A stretch of 48,462 nucleotides of DNA from an uncultured Chlorobiaceae bacterium (GTDB lineage Bacteria > Bacteroidota > Chlorobiia > Chlorobiales > Chlorobiaceae), in the NCBI GenBank assembly GCA_903824295.1, contig CAIJWE010000056.1:1-48462 (forward strand), read 5' to 3'. Position 1 is the first letter of the stretch; the number at the start of each line of letters is the position of its first letter. The position numbers and the translations under genes are program-made. The notes beneath the pieces were generated by a model. It was not told the origin of the DNA, made no database searches, and saw nothing but the letters and a program-made list of their open reading frames with translations. Shown here one piece after another: positions 3,003-17,786 of the stretch.

Positions 3003-4406
3003 ATGGAAAACAAATATATCGGGCAAATAAAAGTGCTGACGCTTGATGATGAAATTGATTTTACAAATGAGATCAGTGATTACCTTCAAAATTCCGGATT
3101 CATTCCCTTTGCTGCCAATACTCCTGAAGATGGGTATGCCATATTAAGCAAAAATAATATTGATTTGCTTATTCTTGATGTGCGCCTGCCAGGAACCAAC
3201 GGACTTGATATTTTAAAAAATGTTAAATCTCTTTATCCTGATATAGAGGTTATTATGGTCTCCGCACATGGCGATATGGATACCGTTATCGATTCAATCA
3301 GGCTGGGCGCATTTGACTATTTGCGCAAACCAATGAGATATATAGATATACAGATTGCCATTAAGCGCACGCAGAAATATCTTCAAATGCAGCATAAGCT
3401 CGCCAAAGCCGAAGAGAAATACTCACTGATAACGTCAGACATGGAGTCAAAAATTGGACGCCATTGCATCGGGAAAAGCAAACAGATTATTGAAATTTAC
3501 GAACTTGCAAAAAAAGCATCACAATACCCTGATATAAACGTACTGATAACAGGTGAAAGCGGGACAGGAAAAGAGATTTTTGCAAGACTTATTCACTATA
3601 TGAGTCAACAAAAAGGTAATTATTTTGGGGCTATTAATTGCAGCGCAATCAGTGACTCCCTTATTGAAAGTGAGTTTTTTGGCCATAAAAAAGGGGCATT
3701 TACAGGCGCTATATCAGATAAAAAGGGATTATTTGAAATATGTAATGATGGGACATTATTTCTGGATGAAATCGCTGATATGCCATTTAATCTCCAATCG
3801 AAAATCTTGCGAGCTATAGAAGAGCGAACAATTACAAGGGTTGGTGACACGAAACAGATACAAACAAAATTCAGATTGATTGCTGCAACCAACTGTGATC
3901 TGCATAAAATGGTGGAAGAAAAAAAATTCAGACTGGATCTGCTTCACAGACTGAATACCCTGCACATACATATCCCTCCCCTCAGGGAAAGAACTGAAGA
4001 TATTGGCCCTCTTTTGATCGATTTTACAGAAGAGTTTTCCGAAAAAATCAATAAGCCGATAGAATATATTGCTGACGAAGTATTTGAAGTACTTGAGAAA
4101 TATAATTTCCCCGGTAATATAAGAGAATTAAGAAACCTTGCGGAAAGAGCGATTATTCTTTCCAAAGGAAAATCATTGGAGGTAACTGATTTTCCCTTAC
4201 CAACAATGGAAAAAAGATTGGAAAAGAGAAATACAACTGACAGTAACAACAAGACGAATGAGGCCGAAGCAATAAGGAAGGCACTTGAAGAATGTGAATA
4301 TAATCAGGTAATAGCGGCAGAAATACTTGGAATTAGTCGATATACACTCATAAGAAGAATGAGAAAATATAAAATCGATATCGGGAAAAAAGAAATTAAC
4401 AGATAA
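3003..4406 (+). CDS. NtrC-type sigma54-dependent response regulator of the gas-vesicle island
   Basis: This is a three-domain bacterial enhancer-binding protein of 467 aa. A receiver domain fills residues 10-125, with acidic pocket Asp15/Asp16, phospho-acceptor Asp59 (LLILDVRLPG), Ser87 and Lys109. A sigma54-activating AAA+ domain follows, with Walker A GESGTGKE at about 184-191, the sigma54-contacting loop GAFTGA at 231-236, and Walker B FLDE at 253-256. The C-terminus (about 425-460) is a Fis-type helix-turn-helix. The gene converges on gvpK with a 49-bp gap, and no sensor kinase gene adjoins it. The gvpA promoter at the other end of the island is a sigma54 promoter, so this protein most likely activates it (inference). 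NtrC-like regulators (gvrA, gvrC) are known in the Serratia 39006 gas-vesicle cluster. Confidence 0.92.
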   Translation: MENKYIGQIKVLTLDDEIDFTNEISDYLQNSGFIPFAANTPEDGYAILSKNNIDLLILDVRLPGTNGLDILKNVKSLYPDIEVIMVSAHGDMDTVIDSIRLGAFDYLRKPMRYIDIQIAIKRTQKYLQMQHKLAKAEEKYSLITSDMESKIGRHCIGKSKQIIEIYELAKKASQYPDINVLITGESGTGKEIFARLIHYMSQQKGNYFGAINCSAISDSLIESEFFGHKKGAFTGAISDKKGLFEICNDGTLFLDEIADMPFNLQSKILRAIEERTITRVGDTKQIQTKFRLIAATNCDLHKMVEEKKFRLDLLHRLNTLHIHIPPLRERTEDIGPLLIDFTEEFSEKINKPIEYIADEVFEVLEKYNFPGNIRELRNLAERAIILSKGKSLEVTDFPLPTMEKRLEKRNTTDSNNKTNEAEAIRKALEECEYNQVIAAEILGISRYTLIRRMRKYKIDIGKKEINR

Positions 4407-8754: not shown

Positions 8755-9789
8755 TTATTTCTTTATTTTAACCAGATATAAAGGTTCATTAAACGCAGCG
8801 TCAGGCGACTGCTTTATAAAATTCGAATATTCAAGTAATATTTTGTATGCATCGTTTATTTTTATAAATCCATCAACACTATTTTCTGAACTTTCAGCAC
8901 TTTTATCCGGATGTGATAATCCTGCTTTTAGACGATAGGCTTTTTTAAGATCACTTTCGGATTTATAAACATCGATACCAAGCACTTCTTTTGCTTTTTC
9001 AATATCATTCGCATTAAGCATTTTACACTCAATCGTATAAAAACTGTAGCACGGCAGCGGGCCAACTATTTTAAAATTAAGATTATCAGCATATTTTGCG
9101 TCAAGCTGATCAATCGTTTCCATGTACATATCTCTGTTTTCTTTTTTTACAAGAAACGCTGAATTTACCGGCATCTCATCATTCATTGTCTCATGTTTTT
9201 TAGCATCAAGACAATAAGAGATCAAGGAATTAGTAACATCAAGATTGACTTTGTTGTTTTTTTCATCAATTTTTTTCTTGATCAATTTACCTATATTGAT
9301 ACTGTCCGCCTGATCATAAACGTCTTTTTTAGCAATATCTTCCTTCAAGAGCCTTATTTGTGAAGTATCTGATATGCGCACAATAAGATCTGGAAAGTTA
9401 TTCCATACGGCCACTAAATCAAATTCATCCACATTGCGGATAATGTTAAAAGTCTCTTTTAAAATATCAAATCCGTTTTTTAATATTTTTATAACATCAT
9501 TTCCAGAACTGACTATAGTGCCAAGTTGAACCGGAATAATTTCTGAGCATCCGCTGCTCATAATCAGTTCAAGTTTTTGTTGATGATCAACAAGGCGATA
9601 GGCAAGAGCCTCTCTGTCCATATATTCGAGTTTCTCTTCCTTTGTATCAGAAACGACTGCGGATATATCCCTATAATCTATTGAATAGATACCCGATTCA
9701 TGCAAAAGACTTTTAATCGCATCAAAAAAGTGAGTAGGAACAAATCCGTATATATAAATGCCTTGCGTATTTATGCCTTGCGTATTCAT
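8755..9789 (-). CDS. GvpF/GvpL protein fused to a C-terminal DnaJ domain
   Basis: A 344-aa two-part protein. Residues about 10-255 form a GvpF/L domain: GIYIYGFVPTH, DISAVVSDTK, LVDHQQKLELIM, IIPVQLGTI, NSAFLVKKENRDMY and the closing GPLPCYSFYTIE. Residues about 262-325 form a J domain: AKEVLGID, SDLKKAYRLKAGLSHPD with the HPD tripeptide at 293-295, then FIKINDAYKILLEY. The HPD motif is what stimulates DnaK (Hsp70), so the protein could recruit DnaK to vesicle assembly intermediates (inference). The first codons lie in three 15-nt tandem repeats, which give the peptide NTQGINTQG. It sits between the CDC48-like ATPase and another gvpF/L gene. Confidence 0.93.
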   Translation of the reverse strand: MNTQGINTQGIYIYGFVPTHFFDAIKSLLHESGIYSIDYRDISAVVSDTKEEKLEYMDREALAYRLVDHQQKLELIMSSGCSEIIPVQLGTIVSSGNDVIKILKNGFDILKETFNIIRNVDEFDLVAVWNNFPDLIVRISDTSQIRLLKEDIAKKDVYDQADSINIGKLIKKKIDEKNNKVNLDVTNSLISYCLDAKKHETMNDEMPVNSAFLVKKENRDMYMETIDQLDAKYADNLNFKIVGPLPCYSFYTIECKMLNANDIEKAKEVLGIDVYKSESDLKKAYRLKAGLSHPDKSAESSENSVDGFIKINDAYKILLEYSNFIKQSPDAAFNEPLYLVKIKK

Positions 9790-9796
9790 GCCTTGC
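9761..9796 (-). repeat. short tandem repeats at the start of the GvpF-J fusion gene
   Basis: Three copies of GCAAGGCAT, spaced 15 nt apart, lie at the AAA-ATPase/GvpF-J junction and around the ATG at 9789. Each carries an AAGG core, so the repeats duplicate a possible ribosome-binding site as well as two short peptide units. Strand slippage here would add or remove five residues without a frameshift. Confidence 0.6.
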
Positions 9797-11943
9797 TAAT
9801 TTAATATATTTTCATTTTGACTTTTAACAACTTCTATTGCCTCTTCAAAGTGCTTTTCTGTAACAAAAATCTCAGCAGTATCTGAAATTTCTTTTTTATC
9901 AATTACTTCTCGAATAGCGCACATTTTCGCCTTTTGACAGATAAACTGTATGTCGGCCCCAGTCATACGTTCTGTTTTTCCCGCCAACACAGTCAGACTC
10001 ACGCCACTCCCCAAAGGCATATTTTTGGTATGGATTTTAAATATTTTTTCTCTGGTACCTAATTCCGGTAACGGAACTTCAAACATAAGATCAAATCTTC
10101 CCGAACGTAATAATGCAGGATCAATGATATCAATTCGATTTGTTGCAGCAAGCACCGTTACACCTTTCAACTCTTCAATACCATCCATTTCAGTGAGAAA
10201 TTGACTAATCACTCTCTCAATGACCCCAGATTCTGTACCATCATTTCTTCTGCGAGGTGTAAGACTGTCTATTTCATCAAGAAAAAGGATAGTCGGCGCT
10301 GATTGTTTGGCAAGCCTGAAAAGCTCACGTACACCTTTTTCAGATTCGCCAATAAAACGACTAAGTAGTTGCGGCCCCTTTACTGAAATAAAATTCACAC
10401 CACTCTCACTGGCCAACGCTTTTGCAAGATATGTCTTGCCAGTTCCCGGCTTTCCGTACAGTATTATTCCTTTTGGAGGCTTGGTATCAGTTTTTTTAAA
10501 CAGTTCTGCATATTTTACCGGCCACTCAACACTCTCTTTTAAAGCCTGCTTGATTTCTTCAAGCCCACCGACATCTTCCCACTTGACATCTGGTACTTCT
10601 ACAAAAACCTCACGAATGGCAGATGGTTCAACCTCCTTCATTGCATCAAGAAAATTATCCATGGTGACTTCCAATTGCATCAAAAGCTCATAAGGAATTT
10701 CAGATAATTCAAAATTAATCTGCGGAAGAATTTTCCTTAATGCCGTCATTGCTGCTTCCCGCGCAAGGGCTTCAAGATCAGCTCCAACAAAACCATGGGT
10801 AATATCAGCAATTTTTGACATATCCACATCATCTGACAATGGAATACCCCTTGTATGGATATGAAGAATTTCAAGCCGTCCTTTTTTGTCAGGAATTGAA
10901 ATCGATATTTCGCGATCAAAACGGCCAGGTCTTCTCAGGGCTGGATCAATAGAATTAGGTATATTTGTCGCACCAATGACAATCACCTTACCTCTTGACT
11001 CCAATCCATCCATCAATGACAAAAGCTGTGCAACGACCCTCTTCTCAACCTGCTTTTCGCCACCCATATCCTCCCTTTTGGGAGCGATTGCATCGATTTC
11101 ATCAATAAATATAATCGATGGCGCATGCGACTGGGCTTCAGCAAATATATTGCGAACCCTTGCTTCACTTTCACCATAATACTTGCCCATAATTTCAGGG
11201 CCTGATATATTGATAAAATATGCATCCGTCTCCTGAGCCACCGCTCTTACAATAAGTGTTTTACCAGTACCAGGAGGGCCATAGAGAAAAACACCTTTTG
11301 GAGGTTCAACGCCCAGTCTTTCAAATATCTCAGGGTATTTTAGAGGCAGTTCAATCATTTCACGTATTCGTTGAACTTGATTACCAAGTCCACCGATATC
11401 TTCATACGTAACCTTATTGGATTTTACCTCGTTTTGTTTTGTCAGCTCAAGCTGAATTGATGTATCTGGATGGATAAGAACCACTCCGTCAGGCACAGTT
11501 GACGTAATCGTATAATATATAGATCCGGATCCAAAAAGAGTCGCCTTGATTTTATCACCTTTAGTAACGGGCAAACCATTAATGAGCGATCCTATATATT
11601 TGGCATCATCTGCTTTTATCTGAGAACTTGACTTTGTTACTGGTTTTAGCTTTATTTTAGTAGCTTGACGGAAGGTGACTTTATTGATCAATACTTTTTC
11701 ATCGATACCAACGCCAGCATTCTCCCTGGTGATACCGTCAATCTGTATGATCCCCTTATCTCTGTCATCCGGATAGGATGGAAGTACTTTGACCGGAGTG
11801 GAGCGCTTCCCCCCGATCATAACAATGTCACCAGTATCCAATCCAGTGCGAGCCATATCATGAGGATCAATCCTTGCAATTGCACGTCCTACATCCTTAA
11901 CTATAGCTTCTTTTACCTTGAGCACCAACTCATCATGACTCAT
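9796..11943 (-). CDS. CDC48/VAT-like double-AAA+ ATPase
   Basis: A 715-aa protein with the full CDC48/p97/VAT layout. An N-domain (about 1-175) has the double-psi barrel motif VGRAIARIDPHDMARTGLDTGD and the archaeal-like DGITRENAGVGIDEKV. D1 (about 178-400) has Walker A GPPGTGKT at 222-229, Walker B IIFIDE at 277-282 and pore loop KYYGES. D2 (about 455-680) has GKPGTGKT at 497-504, ILFLDE at 552-557 and pore loop RFIGES. Such ATPases unfold or remodel proteins by threading them through a hexamer. Its start overlaps the stop of the ArsA-like gene (ATGA). Family function is known; a role in unfolding or quality control of Gvp proteins is inferred from the operon. Confidence 0.93.
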   Translation of the reverse strand: MSHDELVLKVKEAIVKDVGRAIARIDPHDMARTGLDTGDIVMIGGKRSTPVKVLPSYPDDRDKGIIQIDGITRENAGVGIDEKVLINKVTFRQATKIKLKPVTKSSSQIKADDAKYIGSLINGLPVTKGDKIKATLFGSGSIYYTITSTVPDGVVLIHPDTSIQLELTKQNEVKSNKVTYEDIGGLGNQVQRIREMIELPLKYPEIFERLGVEPPKGVFLYGPPGTGKTLIVRAVAQETDAYFINISGPEIMGKYYGESEARVRNIFAEAQSHAPSIIFIDEIDAIAPKREDMGGEKQVEKRVVAQLLSLMDGLESRGKVIVIGATNIPNSIDPALRRPGRFDREISISIPDKKGRLEILHIHTRGIPLSDDVDMSKIADITHGFVGADLEALAREAAMTALRKILPQINFELSEIPYELLMQLEVTMDNFLDAMKEVEPSAIREVFVEVPDVKWEDVGGLEEIKQALKESVEWPVKYAELFKKTDTKPPKGIILYGKPGTGKTYLAKALASESGVNFISVKGPQLLSRFIGESEKGVRELFRLAKQSAPTILFLDEIDSLTPRRRNDGTESGVIERVISQFLTEMDGIEELKGVTVLAATNRIDIIDPALLRSGRFDLMFEVPLPELGTREKIFKIHTKNMPLGSGVSLTVLAGKTERMTGADIQFICQKAKMCAIREVIDKKEISDTAEIFVTEKHFEEAIEVVKSQNENILN

Positions 11944-12905
11944 TTTACCTCTCTGTTTAGCTCTTTATGTTTTTCAAAGAGTACCTGCATTAACCTCTTC
12001 AATGCTGTTACCCCCTTTATTTCATCAGGAAAAAGAGGAACAATTACTACCTGTAATTCTTTAAACAGATCATGGACTTTATCAATATACTTTCGTTGGG
12101 CGACCTTTCTTTGCCGGCAAAACCCAGATTCGTCTGACTCCATGACATTATTGAGAATCAATTGATGTGATGAAATCTTGAAGTGCCTGAGTTCCTTTAA
12201 AAGCCTCTGCGTTTCCATAATAGCCATGTCCTCAGGAATACAGACCGGAATAAATTCACATTTCTCACTATTACCCAATAGAGCGGCAATACGCTTAACT
12301 GTCTTTTTCAGGTTAAGCAACATAACATCTGCTTCATCATCCTTGTATTCACCAGAAAAAGACTCAATCATATAACGATACTTCCACCTCATTTTAGCTG
12401 CCATCTTGATCCACTCATCCAAAAGTACCGGGGAGGACAAAAGACGCAGCGCATGTCCGGTTGGTGCCGTATCTACTACATATTTTTCGTAATTATTCTC
12501 TTCAATCAGGTCAATAATAGTTTTGAAGCTCATAACCTCGTCAATACCTGGTATTGAGAGGCTCATCATTTGCTGAATATCTTCGTCATCAAAATTTGTG
12601 GATGTATCAAAGAGTTTAATAAGCTCAGCTTCATGCTCTTTTTTAAAATCCTGGAAAGCTTTATCTGCAGAAATCTCTATAGCAGTGAGGTTGGGAATGT
12701 TTTGAACAGGCTGAAGTCTGAACCCTATCTCTTGTTCAAGACTGTCAGAAATTGAGTGCGCCGGGTCTGTTGAAATCACCAATGTCGTGAATTTTTGGGC
12801 CAAGCCTATAGCGCAAGCCACAGCACAACTGGTCTTGCCAACACCGCCTTTCCCGCCAAATATAACCATCTTAAGGTCTTTGCACTCCAAACCTGTCAGC
12901 GGCAT
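11940..12905 (-). CDS. ArsA/Get3-family ATPase in the gas-vesicle operon
   Basis: A 321-aa single-domain ArsA/TRC40-type ATPase. It has the deviant Walker A GGKGGVGKT at 17-25, the switch I motif STDPAHSISDSL, a switch II-like VVDTAPTGHALRLL, and a C-terminal DEIKGVTALKRLM. Members either pump arsenite (double-domain ArsA) or, like Get3, shield hydrophobic helices of tail-anchored membrane proteins. The single-domain size, the absence of arsenic genes and the position between Hsp20 and a CDC48-like gene favour a chaperone role for hydrophobic Gvp proteins (inference). Its TGA overlaps the next ATG by 4 bp. Confidence 0.9.
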   Translation of the reverse strand: MPLTGLECKDLKMVIFGGKGGVGKTSCAVACAIGLAQKFTTLVISTDPAHSISDSLEQEIGFRLQPVQNIPNLTAIEISADKAFQDFKKEHEAELIKLFDTSTNFDDEDIQQMMSLSIPGIDEVMSFKTIIDLIEENNYEKYVVDTAPTGHALRLLSSPVLLDEWIKMAAKMRWKYRYMIESFSGEYKDDEADVMLLNLKKTVKRIAALLGNSEKCEFIPVCIPEDMAIMETQRLLKELRHFKISSHQLILNNVMESDESGFCRQRKVAQRKYIDKVHDLFKELQVVIVPLFPDEIKGVTALKRLMQVLFEKHKELNREVK

Positions 12906-12909
12906 TATA

Positions 12910-13434
12910 TCATTTTTTAATTCTTATTTCAAGGATACCGTTCGTGTATTTTTGCTTCATCGAACTCATATCAGATTTGATCGGCAATAACAATTCCTTA
13001 CGGTAACTTTTCTTCATGCTTTTCGTCGAAATCTCAAGAATATCATCGTTAAGATCAATAACAATATCCGATTCTTCAATGCCAGGCATTTCTGCGATGA
13101 TGACAACCTCATTATCCTCATCAAACACATCAGTTATAGGCTCACGTTCCTCGTTAACCCTGGGGCCTTGAGCTGTTTTGACAATGTTTCCGAATGTCTC
13201 AACCTTTGGAGAACCACCTACTGCTGATTTAATGGTAAATCCATAAACACCTTTCATTCCTTTTTTCAACTGATCAAAATTGAGCTCTCCTTCGCGACTT
13301 ACCGCTCCAGTCTGCTCAAGCTTACCAGCTAAATCGACCAATTTTTCAATTCCCTTAAAAAGACCTCCCAAGCCAAGAAAATCAAAATCAGATTCTGATT
13401 CCCCTTTTCTGTTACTATCTTTTTCATATTTCAT
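12910..13434 (-). CDS. gvpH: Hsp20 / alpha-crystallin-type gas vesicle protein (GvpH-like)
   Basis: A 174-aa small heat-shock protein. The C-terminal alpha-crystallin domain is clear: ITDVFDEDNEVVIIAEMPGI, ESDIVIDLNDDILEIST, then a final strand TNGILEIRIKK. The N-terminal half contains DFLGLGGLFKGIEKLVDLAGK, typical of GvpH proteins. The protein ends right after the crystallin domain and lacks an IXI-type tail. The ATG at 13434 has GGGGTG 5 nt upstream; a TTG at 13446 is the alternative. In haloarchaea GvpH is a chaperone-like protein of vesicle assembly. Confidence 0.88.
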   Translation of the reverse strand: MKYEKDSNRKGESESDFDFLGLGGLFKGIEKLVDLAGKLEQTGAVSREGELNFDQLKKGMKGVYGFTIKSAVGGSPKVETFGNIVKTAQGPRVNEEREPITDVFDEDNEVVIIAEMPGIEESDIVIDLNDDILEISTKSMKKSYRKELLLPIKSDMSSMKQKYTNGILEIRIKK

Positions 13435-13446
13435 AATGCACCCCAA

Positions 13447-13752: not shown

Positions 13753-14058
13753 TTAGTACTCTATTTGGATGGTTGTAAATCCAGGTTCTGAGTTTACCTC
13801 GCCGTAATGGCGATTATTCTGATGATGAAGTAAATGAGAGCTGTGCTCATAAATATTTTCAATAATTCTCAACCTGTTCTGGACATAATCAAGCCTGCAT
13901 AATATTTTTGACTCTTCAGCCATCAAACGCTGCTTCTCTTTTTCAAGCATATACAATTCAAGAAAATCCGCAGTATCATTTTTCTTGATAGATGCCTTGG
14001 TAACGGTATGGAGAGTCTTAATATGGCTGACGCCCCTCTTAGGATTCATAATCGGCAT
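13753..14058 (-). CDS. small coiled-coil gas-vesicle-cluster protein (GvpV-like by position)
   Basis: A 101-aa basic protein. Residues 1-30 are basic (MNPKRGVSHIKTLHTVTKAS). Residues 31-70 form a helix with heptad-like spacing (FLELYMLEKEKQRLMAEESK, then DYVQNRLRIIENIYE). The tail is His/Asn-rich. It follows gvpN directly, where Serratia 39006 carries gvpV, so GvpV-like is a positional guess. The ATG at 14058 has GAGA a few bases upstream; a second in-frame ATG lies at 14049. No catalytic motif is visible. Confidence 0.7.
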   Translation of the reverse strand: MPIMNPKRGVSHIKTLHTVTKASIKKNDTADFLELYMLEKEKQRLMAEESKILCRLDYVQNRLRIIENIYEHSSHLLHHQNNRHYGEVNSEPGFTTIQIEY

Positions 14059-14087: not shown

Positions 14088-15014
14088 CTATGAGTACAAG
14101 TCAATAAGCTCATTTACAATACCACGTACTCTCTCCTGATTTGTTTTGGATCCGACCCTGCTTGTCTCCGAAGTCAAAATATCCTGACAAACTTTTTTAA
14201 ACATATCGTTTGACTTATCAGGCCTTGCTCCAAGAACATTCAATGTTTTAGCTATCATGATCGAACCCCGGATTGTGGGGTCAAACTCAGTTTTACCCGA
14301 TTCACGCAACCCGCGTACGATTTTAACAATTTTTTCAGCATCATCAAGTGACATTCCTGATTTTGCATGGGTGATCATAAGTTCCGTCTCATAATCGAAA
14401 TAATCAAGATCCATGGTAACCATTCTGTCACGCAGAGCATCCTGGGTCCTGTTTACACCAGCATATTCCTCTGGATTCGAGGTAAATATTGCCCTGAATT
14501 CAGGATGGACCTTCATATAATACTCTTCTTCATTTGATGAAGAGGTACTCAACATTTTTTCCTGAAGAATAGGAAGGAGAATATTGTTCGCTTCAGGACG
14601 CGAACGGGTAAATTCGTCATACACCAAGGTAAACCCTTTCTTGATTGCAATGGTAAGTCGGTTGTTTACCCACTGTTTGGTCATGTCCTCTTCATACTTG
14701 TGAACAGAATGAATAAAATTATCATCCAGCCTTCTATATTTGTAACCCTGCTCACTTCCAATAAGATCAGATGTTTTGTATTCTGAATCGCCATGAATAA
14801 TGACAACAGGTCGACCGATCTGGCTTGCAAGATGCAACGCAACCGTCGTTTTCCCGGTACCAGAAGGACCCCTGAAATGAACAGGAAAGCCCGCTTTCAT
14901 GTAGGTCAGACCACGGTTGGTTATATCCCTGATGTAGTCTGTTTCGACAAAATTCGGCATGGGCTTTGGCTCAAGCACTGTATTCATCTCATTATCATTT
15001 CCTTGACGACGCAT
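14088..15014 (-). CDS. gvpN: gas vesicle AAA+ ATPase GvpN
   Basis: A 308-aa MoxR/CbbQ-type AAA+ ATPase of the GvpN family. It has Walker A GPSGTGKT at 49-56, HGDSEYKTSDLIGSEQGYKY (a hallmark of GvpN), Walker B FTLVYDEFTRSRPEANN at about 128-143, and sensor-1 FTSNPEEYAGVN. GvpN is needed for vesicles to grow from bicones to full cylinders in several organisms. A second start at 14987 (MNTVLEPKPMPNF) is equally possible. A strong hairpin lies upstream of the gene, so this half of the cluster may depend on read-through or a separate promoter. Confidence 0.94.
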   Translation of the reverse strand: MRRQGNDNEMNTVLEPKPMPNFVETDYIRDITNRGLTYMKAGFPVHFRGPSGTGKTTVALHLASQIGRPVVIIHGDSEYKTSDLIGSEQGYKYRRLDDNFIHSVHKYEEDMTKQWVNNRLTIAIKKGFTLVYDEFTRSRPEANNILLPILQEKMLSTSSSNEEEYYMKVHPEFRAIFTSNPEEYAGVNRTQDALRDRMVTMDLDYFDYETELMITHAKSGMSLDDAEKIVKIVRGLRESGKTEFDPTIRGSIMIAKTLNVLGARPDKSNDMFKKVCQDILTSETSRVGSKTNQERVRGIVNELIDLYS

Positions 15015-15132: not shown

Positions 15133-16299
15133 TTACTTGTTTTTCTTAGCCGGGTAGTACAGATTTTCTACTTTTGAAACTTTCCCTGCATCCAGCAGAC
15201 ATTTTGCAGCAAAACCAATCTTCATCCTGGTCTCATGTAAAGGTTCTTCCATATCAGAAACCTTTACACCTTCATGATAGCTATTGATGTACTGGAAAAT
15301 TTTGTCTTCCAAAGTGATTTCATCGTGTACTGCTGGCGGCTCAATATTGACTACTGGTGCCTTTTCCTCAAAAACAGGCAGCCCTTTAATAACAGCAGGT
15401 GCCGGTTCAGCTTTTACCTCACGCTTTTCAACCGCTTTTTCCACTCTTTTTGGAGTTGCAACCTGCCCGCCACTTCTGATCGCAGCGATCTCTTCCTGCA
15501 TCTGTCTCCAATGATCAGCTCCCTGTGATCTGTCTTTGGAATAACTGCCAAGCAAGCTCGAAATGGACTCTCTCAGCTCTGTAACTTCACTGCTGATCCG
15601 GTCAAACAATGCGTTATACTCCTTCAGCCTGTCTGCCTCACCATCGTTTAAATCGTTTCTGAGCTTACGAGCAGCATTGAGGTTGTCGTTACTTATCTCC
15701 GCAATTCTTCCCTGAATGCTCTTGAGCAATGCATGGGTATACTCAAATCGCTCGTTTCTTGTTTTGCTCAACTCCGCCCTGAGCTCATCCGTCATCTCCT
15801 TATGTTCACTGTCAAATTTTTCAAGCATTTCGTTCGTATAGTTGAAAATACTTGACACTTCATCACTTATTTTTCCAATGTACATCTCATACTCCGCCAT
15901 TCTCGATTGCTCATTCTGGGCGCGTGACTGATTTTCTCCAGAGAAAAACTTGTCCAAATCACTTGCCAGCACCTTTCTTGCCTTGGCGAACTCATTAATC
16001 AATGCGTTCGTTGATGACTTTGACCCTTTAACGTCCCTTTCAATACCTTTAATATCGTTCTGTATAGAGCCAATCAACTGTCCATATTTGCTTATCCTCT
16101 CTTTTTCACCTGAAGCAAGATTACTTTTTAATTCAGCAGCATTCGCACTCAATGCAGCGGCTGTATTTTCCTGCTCTTGACGATACTGTTGCAGCCTTTT
16201 CTCAACATTGGCGACAAGTTCCTGATTATCTCTGACGCGCTCCTTAAATGAAGAAAGCATCTCTTCACTCAAGCTTTTCATTTCATTAGCCAGTCCCAT
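15133..16299 (-). CDS. repeat coiled-coil protein with winged-helix-like tail, candidate GvpC
   Basis: A 388-aa protein with three parts. Residues 1-275 are almost wholly helical and contain four degenerate copies of R-x2-3-Y-x2-L-x3-I-x3-I, starting near residues 68 (RISKYGQLIGSI), 133, 184 and 224 (RLKEYNALFDRI). A Pro/Ala/Val-rich linker follows (about 280-325). Residues 328-383 form a compact domain, including MKIGFAAKCLLDAGKVSKVE and ENLYYP, that reads like a winged helix. GvpC proteins are helical repeat proteins on the vesicle outside, usually encoded just after gvpA, so GvpC-like is a reasonable but unproven call. The ATG has GGAGAG about 6 nt upstream. Confidence 0.75.
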   Translation of the reverse strand: MGLANEMKSLSEEMLSSFKERVRDNQELVANVEKRLQQYRQEQENTAAALSANAAELKSNLASGEKERISKYGQLIGSIQNDIKGIERDVKGSKSSTNALINEFAKARKVLASDLDKFFSGENQSRAQNEQSRMAEYEMYIGKISDEVSSIFNYTNEMLEKFDSEHKEMTDELRAELSKTRNERFEYTHALLKSIQGRIAEISNDNLNAARKLRNDLNDGEADRLKEYNALFDRISSEVTELRESISSLLGSYSKDRSQGADHWRQMQEEIAAIRSGGQVATPKRVEKAVEKREVKAEPAPAVIKGLPVFEEKAPVVNIEPPAVHDEITLEDKIFQYINSYHEGVKVSDMEEPLHETRMKIGFAAKCLLDAGKVSKVENLYYPAKKNK

Positions 16300-17117: not shown

Positions 17118-17324
17118 TTACGCTGCCTTTGCAGTCAGGCCGATTGCTTCAGCATATTTCAGGTAGGTCTCTACAGAGGCAACTACGACACGTGCTTCGA
17201 TAGCAAGAAGCTCGATACCGACAAGTGATACCCTTACCCATGCATCAACAACAACACCCTTATCAAGAATACGGTCAATAACCTCGACGAGGCTTGATGA
17301 ACCAATCGTTTTTTCTACTGCCAT
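17118..17324 (-). CDS. gvpA: gas vesicle structural protein GvpA (copy 2)
   Basis: The 68-aa major shell protein. The sequence has the invariant GvpA core: [20 protein letters not shown], then [20 protein letters not shown] and [14 protein letters not shown]. GvpA subunits stack into the gas-permeable ribs of the vesicle. The protein is identical to copy 1, and the DNA differs at only a few silent sites. GGAG 9 nt before the ATG is conserved in both copies. It lies 57 bp downstream of copy 1 and is probably co-transcribed with it from the sigma54 promoter. Confidence 0.97.
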
Positions 17325-17381
17325 GATAAATCTCCAGTTGTTCGTTTTAGAAATAGGAACTCTTCAGTGTACCGAATCTGC

Positions 17382-17588
17382 TTATGCTGCTTTTGCGGTC
17401 AGGCCGATTGCTTCAGCATATTTCAGGTAGGTCTCTACAGAGGCAACTACGACACGTGCTTCAATAGCAAGAAGCTCGATACCGACAAGCGATACCCTTA
17501 CCCATGCATCAACAACAACACCCTTATCAAGAATACGGTCAATAACCTCGACGAGGCTTGATGAACCAATCGTTTTCTCTACTGCCAT
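17382..17588 (-). CDS. gvpA: gas vesicle structural protein GvpA (copy 1)
   Basis: The first gene of the gvp run, 68 aa, identical in protein sequence to copy 2. It has the conserved beta-turn-beta core ([20 protein letters not shown]) flanked by two helices. The frame is open upstream to 17699, but the ATG at 17588 gives the family N-terminus [12 protein letters not shown] and has CTGGAGATTTATC before it. The sigma54 promoter lies about 80 bp upstream, giving a leader of about 66 nt. Confidence 0.97.
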
Positions 17589-17664
17589 GATAAATCTCCA
17601 GTTATTTGTTGCTTCAAATTCCGTCTTGTAAAGAGAGGGACGGTCTGCCTCACCAAATAAGAGT

Positions 17665-17680
17665 AGCATATAGTGTGCCA
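17665..17680 (-). promoter_or_regulatory. sigma54 (-24/-12) promoter of the gas-vesicle operon
   Basis: On the minus strand the sequence TGGCACACTATATGCT matches the sigma54 consensus TGGCAC-N5-TTGC with one mismatch in the -12 box (ATGC for TTGC). The essential GG (17679-17678) and GC (17667-17666) are exactly 10 bp apart. Transcription would start near 17654, about 66 nt before gvpA copy 1. The NtrC-type regulator at 3003 with its GAFTGA loop is the obvious activator. Confidence 0.88.
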
Positions 17681-17786
17681 ATGTAGCTGAACGCACCAAT
17701 ACACTCCGGATTATTTCCGCTAAAACATTTTATTAAATAGTGATATATGATTTATTATTTTTTATTCAACTGACTGTCCGCAATAA

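Follow-up and report, generated by a model that had tools for sequence, protein, structure and literature searches.

A GvpC-like rod protein with a predicted winged-helix tail in a Chlorobiaceae gas-vesicle operon

Models of gas-vesicle reinforcement rest mainly on the GvpC proteins of cyanobacteria and haloarchaea. The window analyzed here, a whole stretch of 48,462 nucleotides from an uncultured Chlorobiaceae bacterium, carries between gvpA and gvpN a gene for a protein of 388 amino acids, P0001, in which a long helical rod is followed by a linker and a compact tail. This raises the question of whether such a protein is the GvpC of these bacteria, and what its tail is for. In our judgement, P0001 rather likely braces the gas vesicles of Chlorobiaceae from outside in the manner of GvpC and has a docking module in addition; the evidence for this reading and for its alternatives is discussed below.

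The gas-vesicle operon and the gvpA-gvpN slot

The P0001 gene is located at 15133-16299 on the minus strand, to which all coordinates in the window refer unless the plus strand is named, with its ATG at 16299 and its stop at 15133. The open reading frame is intact over 388 codons, and the boundaries proposed in an earlier note on this DNA proved exact. The surrounding genes form a complete gas-vesicle operon, and the nearest loci assign the genome to the Chlorobiaceae. It runs from two gvpA copies through P0002, P0001, gvpN, a gene for 101 amino acids, a GvpA/J homologue and an Hsp20-type protein, and the rest consists of an ArsA/Get3 ATPase, a CDC48 ATPase, a GvpF-DnaJ fusion and further GvpF/L genes. 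The tandem gvpA pair (17118-17588) comprises copy 1 at 17382-17588, which lies within a longer open reading frame (17382-17699) beginning at an upstream TTG, and copy 2 at 17118-17324; their products, 68 amino acids each, are identical. Upstream of gvpA there is a putative sigma-54-type -24/-12 site, TTGGCAC-N6-TGC, at 17666-17681, recognized only by its exact match to the consensus, and a sigma-54-dependent response-regulator-type gene is located at 3003-4406 (plus strand) at the far end of the cluster.

The next gene downstream of P0001, gvpN (14088-15014), codes for an AAA+ ATPase (TIGR02640, E = 1.7e-102, over the cut-off). The gene for 101 amino acids that follows it (13753-14058) gave no match in the family search and is GvpV-like by position only, and the Hsp20/alpha-crystallin (GvpH-type) protein at 12910-13446 was identified by a family match. 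The CDC48-type AAA ATPase and the ArsA/Get3-type ATPase (9796-12905) are kept in Chlorobiaceae and several relatives, and CDC48 homologues are present in the gvp clusters of Methylosinus and Methylocella, too. The fusion of GvpF/L with a C-terminal DnaJ domain (8755-9789; Pfam DnaJ, E = 7.6e-10) was also found in genome G041 (locus L084) and, as judged by an HPD-type sequence, in loci L051 and L053.

The slot between gvpA and gvpN, in which P0001 sits, is conserved in every Chlorobiaceae gvp locus compared, and it is filled by the annotated gvpC in Nostoc and Halobacterium, which served as controls. The earlier note had placed P0001 just after gvpA, and this has to be corrected: the two gvpA copies are adjoined by a second rod gene, P0002 (16325-16939), and P0001 comes after it. 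P0001 has the gvpA-gvpN position of the GvpC functional class, with P0002 intervening.

An amphipathic rod with degenerate repeats

AlphaFold predicts the rod, residues 3-275 (15475-16293), as a single amphipathic helix of about 41 nm, with a pLDDT of about 90-95 up to about residue 210 and about 70-80 towards the helix end. The hydrophobicity power of the P0001 rod is about 20 at a period of 3.62 versus 1.2 at 3.50. Likewise, the hydrophobic period was 3.62-3.65 in 17 of 17 homologues, with almost no power at 3.5. In the test for heptad coiled coils, which looks for a period of 3.5, P0001 did not qualify, and the pattern was the same in 16 homologues. Because the period is 3.62 and there is nothing at 3.50, the rod is an amphipathic helix with a straight stripe rather than a heptad coiled coil, and the long coiled coil described in the earlier note was rejected. 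The rod has a shape that looks suited to lying on a surface.

Four degenerate copies of an R-x2-3-Y-x2-L-x3-I-x3-I unit had also been described in that note, and these were recovered. They are located at residues 54-89 (R68; 16033-16140), about 119-154 (R133; 15838-15945), 170-205 (R184; 15685-15792) and 210-245 (R224; 15565-15672), with the strict pattern at R68 only. Relaxed patterns occurred 3-5 times versus 0.02-0.12 expected from shuffles, for a motif chosen after the fact. Because the motif was picked from the P0001 sequence itself, a motif-free profile self-comparison was used, in which the best 36-residue self-match scored 50.1, versus a null mean of 20.4 and a null maximum of 36.7 in 300 permutations keeping the hydrophobic pattern. 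The self-matches paired residues 54-89 with 210-245 and with 170-205, and residues 130-165 with 221-256. The spacings between units are uneven (65, 51 and 40 residues), and since they come close to whole turns (18, 14 and 11) at the observed period, the units would face the same way. A long amphipathic alpha-helical rod with internal repeats, as found in the GvpC class, is thus present in P0001.

As judged by sequence, P0001 falls outside the known GvpC repeat families. It had no match at E <= 1 to the cyanobacterial repeat models PF01304 and TIGR02641 (Nostoc control, E = 7.5e-48 and 3.2e-39) or to the halobacterial model PF05465 (Halobacterium control, E = 7e-41), and the rod profile gave no significant match to Nostoc GvpC (probability 3%). 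The earlier note had regarded P0001 as a candidate GvpC strengthening protein. A GvpC-like role is supported by gene order, the amphipathic rod, the repeats and a slot motif found across phyla, while membership of a known repeat family is not supported; P0001 probably works like GvpC. Cyanobacterial GvpC resembles it in having a gene between gvpA and gvpN and a repeated amphipathic helix (period 3.66 in Nostoc versus 3.62), but has a regular 33-residue repeat that is lacking in P0001. The rod of P0001, with 273 residues and about 41 nm, is about 1.6 times as long as Anabaena GvpC, at about 25 nm (PMC10185304), and its linker and winged-helix domain are extra relative to the cyanobacterial protein. 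The rod of Halobacterium GvpC, unlike that of P0001, has no clear 3.6-type periodicity. The GvpC of Serratia is presumably comparable as well, as judged by gene order and the published description. Loss of gvpC in Serratia lowers the collapse pressure threefold (PMC4982088).

The only Trp of P0001 lies near the rod end in the motif R257-x6-W264 (15508-15531). Each of the Chlorobiota lineages examined has a similar motif in this gene slot (R was replaced in three), and so do Methylocella, Methylosinus and Spartinivicinus. The gvpA-gvpN genes of these three code for helical proteins with a single R-x6-W near the end, as in P0001, but their products are shorter and have no winged-helix tail. The rod-end Trp was absent from the slot genes of Octadecabacter, Nostoc and Halobacterium. 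When 567 ORFs were ranked with an HMM trained exclusively on rod ends of Chlorobiota, the top six places went to the candidate GvpC genes from six outside gvp clusters; because the E-values are weak (0.006-0.16), this ranking is only suggestive, and it could partly reflect common amphipathic-helix composition. Desulfotomaculum L026 was rejected as a relative, being an SMC/Rad50-like coiled-coil ATPase that matches residues 79-185 only.

The second rod protein, P0002, has 204 amino acids and no tail. It, too, is an amphipathic rod (period 3.62, power 15.4) and is paralogous to the P0001 rod (hhalign probability 93.5%, E = 2.3e-7; reversed control 0.9%), so Chlorobiota have a tandem pair of rods. 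P0002 is conserved throughout Chlorobiota between gvpA and the P0001 gene, and it has a conserved SLRKKDF/Y motif. As paralogues, the two rods are both candidates for the brace, and P0002 also lies directly after gvpA. It might therefore be P0002 that is the real GvpC brace, with P0001 as an accessory assembly or scaffold protein whose rod measures or bridges ribs and whose tail recruits factors. However, the single slot gene of Methylocella, Methylosinus and Spartinivicinus has the Trp motif of the P0001 family, and the joint retention of homologues of both rod genes in Chlorobiota points to a pair of rods whose tasks are related. We consider this alternative unlikely, and prefer P0001 as the outer brace.

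The linker and the winged-helix tail

The rod is followed by a disordered, fast-evolving linker, residues 276-328 (15316-15474), and by the tail, residues 329-388 (15136-15315; core 329-384), which is the most conserved part of the protein. The earlier note had suggested a compact, winged-helix-like C-terminal domain that structure prediction should reveal, and AlphaFold indeed folds residues of about 329-384 in this way. The predicted tail is compact, with three helices (330-339, 347-354 and 358-370), one strand preceding helix 2 and another, short one in the wing; the tail alone has a mean pLDDT of 81, and this predicted model has the H1-S1-H2-H3-wing topology of winged helices. In a Foldseek search against the PDB, the best matches of the tail were nearly all winged helices (Zalpha, ArsR, MarR and Lrp types), at E values of at least 0.9, and the VIA-align Z of the tail against winged helices reached 6.5. 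Because no structural match was significant, the assignment is based on topology and on the agreement among the listed matches. Zalpha, ArsR and MarR domains share the predicted helix order and the wing with the tail, but have no significant sequence or Foldseek match to it, and the tail lacks their dimerization or ligand-binding parts. The weak Pfam matches of the tail are winged as well (WHD_ROQ1, RPA_C and TFA2); RPA_C is a protein-binding winged helix. Sequence searches of solved structures with P0001 and with the tail profile returned noise only.

Conservation sets the tail apart from the rest of P0001. Among 17 sequences, 20 of 56 columns were invariant in the tail, versus 20 of 275 in the rod and 0 of 53 in the linker. 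The most distant homologue, L050 from another family of the order, has 27 of 56 identities in the tail and 52 of 214 in the rod. The dN/dS ratio was 0.03-0.04 in the tail versus 0.09-0.13 in the rod in both pairs for which it was computable, the other pairs being saturated. Chance or artefact was rejected as an origin of the architecture, for 17 distinct homologues have rod, linker and tail in one uninterrupted reading frame, and their dN/dS is low.

The tail was found in 17 of the 98 genomes of the class, once per genome and in the gvp locus. It was present in all 13 Chlorobiaceae with GvpN that were checked and in one other family, and none was found outside gvp loci when plasmids and the 98 genomes were searched. 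In two families of the order (f2 and f4) and in one genome of the phylum (G064), the slot is occupied by a rod gene whose product lacks the tail. An exclusive tie between the tail and the GvpF-DnaJ fusion was rejected, because an HPD-bearing fusion is also present in G064 (L051), which lacks the tail.

Halobacterium GvpC is similar to P0001 in its gene slot and in its build, with degenerate helical repeats and then, at the C-terminus, a globular domain of nucleic-acid-binding type, but it ends in a zinc finger where P0001 ends in a winged helix. Its C-terminus (L069, 3967-4824) resembles ROS_MUCR, a zinc-finger DNA-binding family, below the cut-off (E = 0.0013), in parallel with the P0001 tail. 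The C-terminal zinc-finger region of Halobacterium GvpC binds GvpN, GvpO, F, H, I, L and itself, whereas an N-terminal fragment binds these Gvp partners weakly or not at all (PMC9372576). The view of the earlier note that such a domain is unusual for a shell protein must therefore be narrowed, because Halobacterium GvpC also has a globular C-terminus of nucleic-acid-binding type that docks proteins. No paper in the searched literature linked a winged helix to gas-vesicle proteins in this way, and within that literature such a head on a gas-vesicle rod is new.

It could also be that the winged helix binds DNA, either tethering vesicles to the nucleoid for segregation or allowing free P0001 to regulate gvp transcription until it is sequestered on vesicles; if so, the vesicle surface would be studded with DNA-binding heads on its outer brace. 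Most of the top structural neighbours of the tail, including the Zalpha, ArsR, MarR and Lrp types, are nucleic-acid-binding winged helices, and the invariant polar residues R358, K360, K376 and N379 fall in its helix 3 and wing. However, with 10 K/R versus 9 D/E the tail has no net basic character, the fold matches are generic at the E and Z values given above, the weak Pfam matches include the protein-binding RPA_C, and the Halobacterium counterpart is a protein-docking domain (PMC9372576). We consider DNA binding quite improbable, and protein docking remains the preferred reading of the tail.

A candidate brace with a docking module

It is very improbable that P0001 has nothing to do with shell bracing and is a helical protein of apolipoprotein-like or membrane-bound kind that sits in the operon by happenstance, and an apolipoprotein identity was rejected: although P0001 matches Pfam Apolipoprotein (PF01442, E = 8.4e-7) and a Prosthecochloris gvp cluster has an "apolipoprotein" gene apart from gvpC (PMC10158934), the score of 29.3 bits is far below the curated cut-off of 90, Halobacterium GvpC also matches weakly (E = 0.0011), so the match reflects amphipathic-helix composition, and the slot is conserved across phyla.

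As a GvpC-type brace, P0001 would lie on the outside of the vesicle as a helix of about 41 nm, with its hydrophobic stripe along the GvpA rib, and would stiffen the shell, both binding and stiffening being assumed by analogy with GvpC. Cryo-ET of Anabaena vesicles showed GvpC along the ribs as an outer cage, with about four GvpA per 33 residues (PMC10185304); at this ratio, the rod of P0001 would span about 33 GvpA subunits. The repeats may represent successive contact registers on the rib, and the flexible linker of about 50 residues would keep the winged-helix domain away from the shell. The tail may serve as a handle for protein docking, either recruiting assembly factors encoded in the operon (putatively GvpN, the GvpO-like protein or the Hsp20/GvpH protein) or being placed by them, and/or it may link the rods to each other, as the zinc-finger C-terminus does in Halobacterium GvpC. 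By this analogy, a conserved head on a flexible linker at the same rod end is best read as a Halobacterium-type docking site with a different fold.

Green sulfur bacteria thereby gain a candidate brace of very different build, with two tandem rods, a longer rod and a conserved C-terminal head. The P0001 tail, the Halobacterium zinc finger and a short conserved IxI-type peptide of a related family suggest that GvpC-type rods have at their C-terminus a docking site that can be exchanged, which would be useful for engineering vesicles that display cargo.

In addition, the rod proteins of family f2 end in a FAINIPFA-like peptide in place of the tail. In the tail-less families, the gene before gvpN (L055, L056, L057, L058, L059 and L060) codes for a conserved F-[AS]-I-x-I-P-F C-terminus. 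This peptide is similar to the IxI motif at the C-terminus of small heat-shock proteins and may dock to the Hsp20/GvpH protein of the operon.
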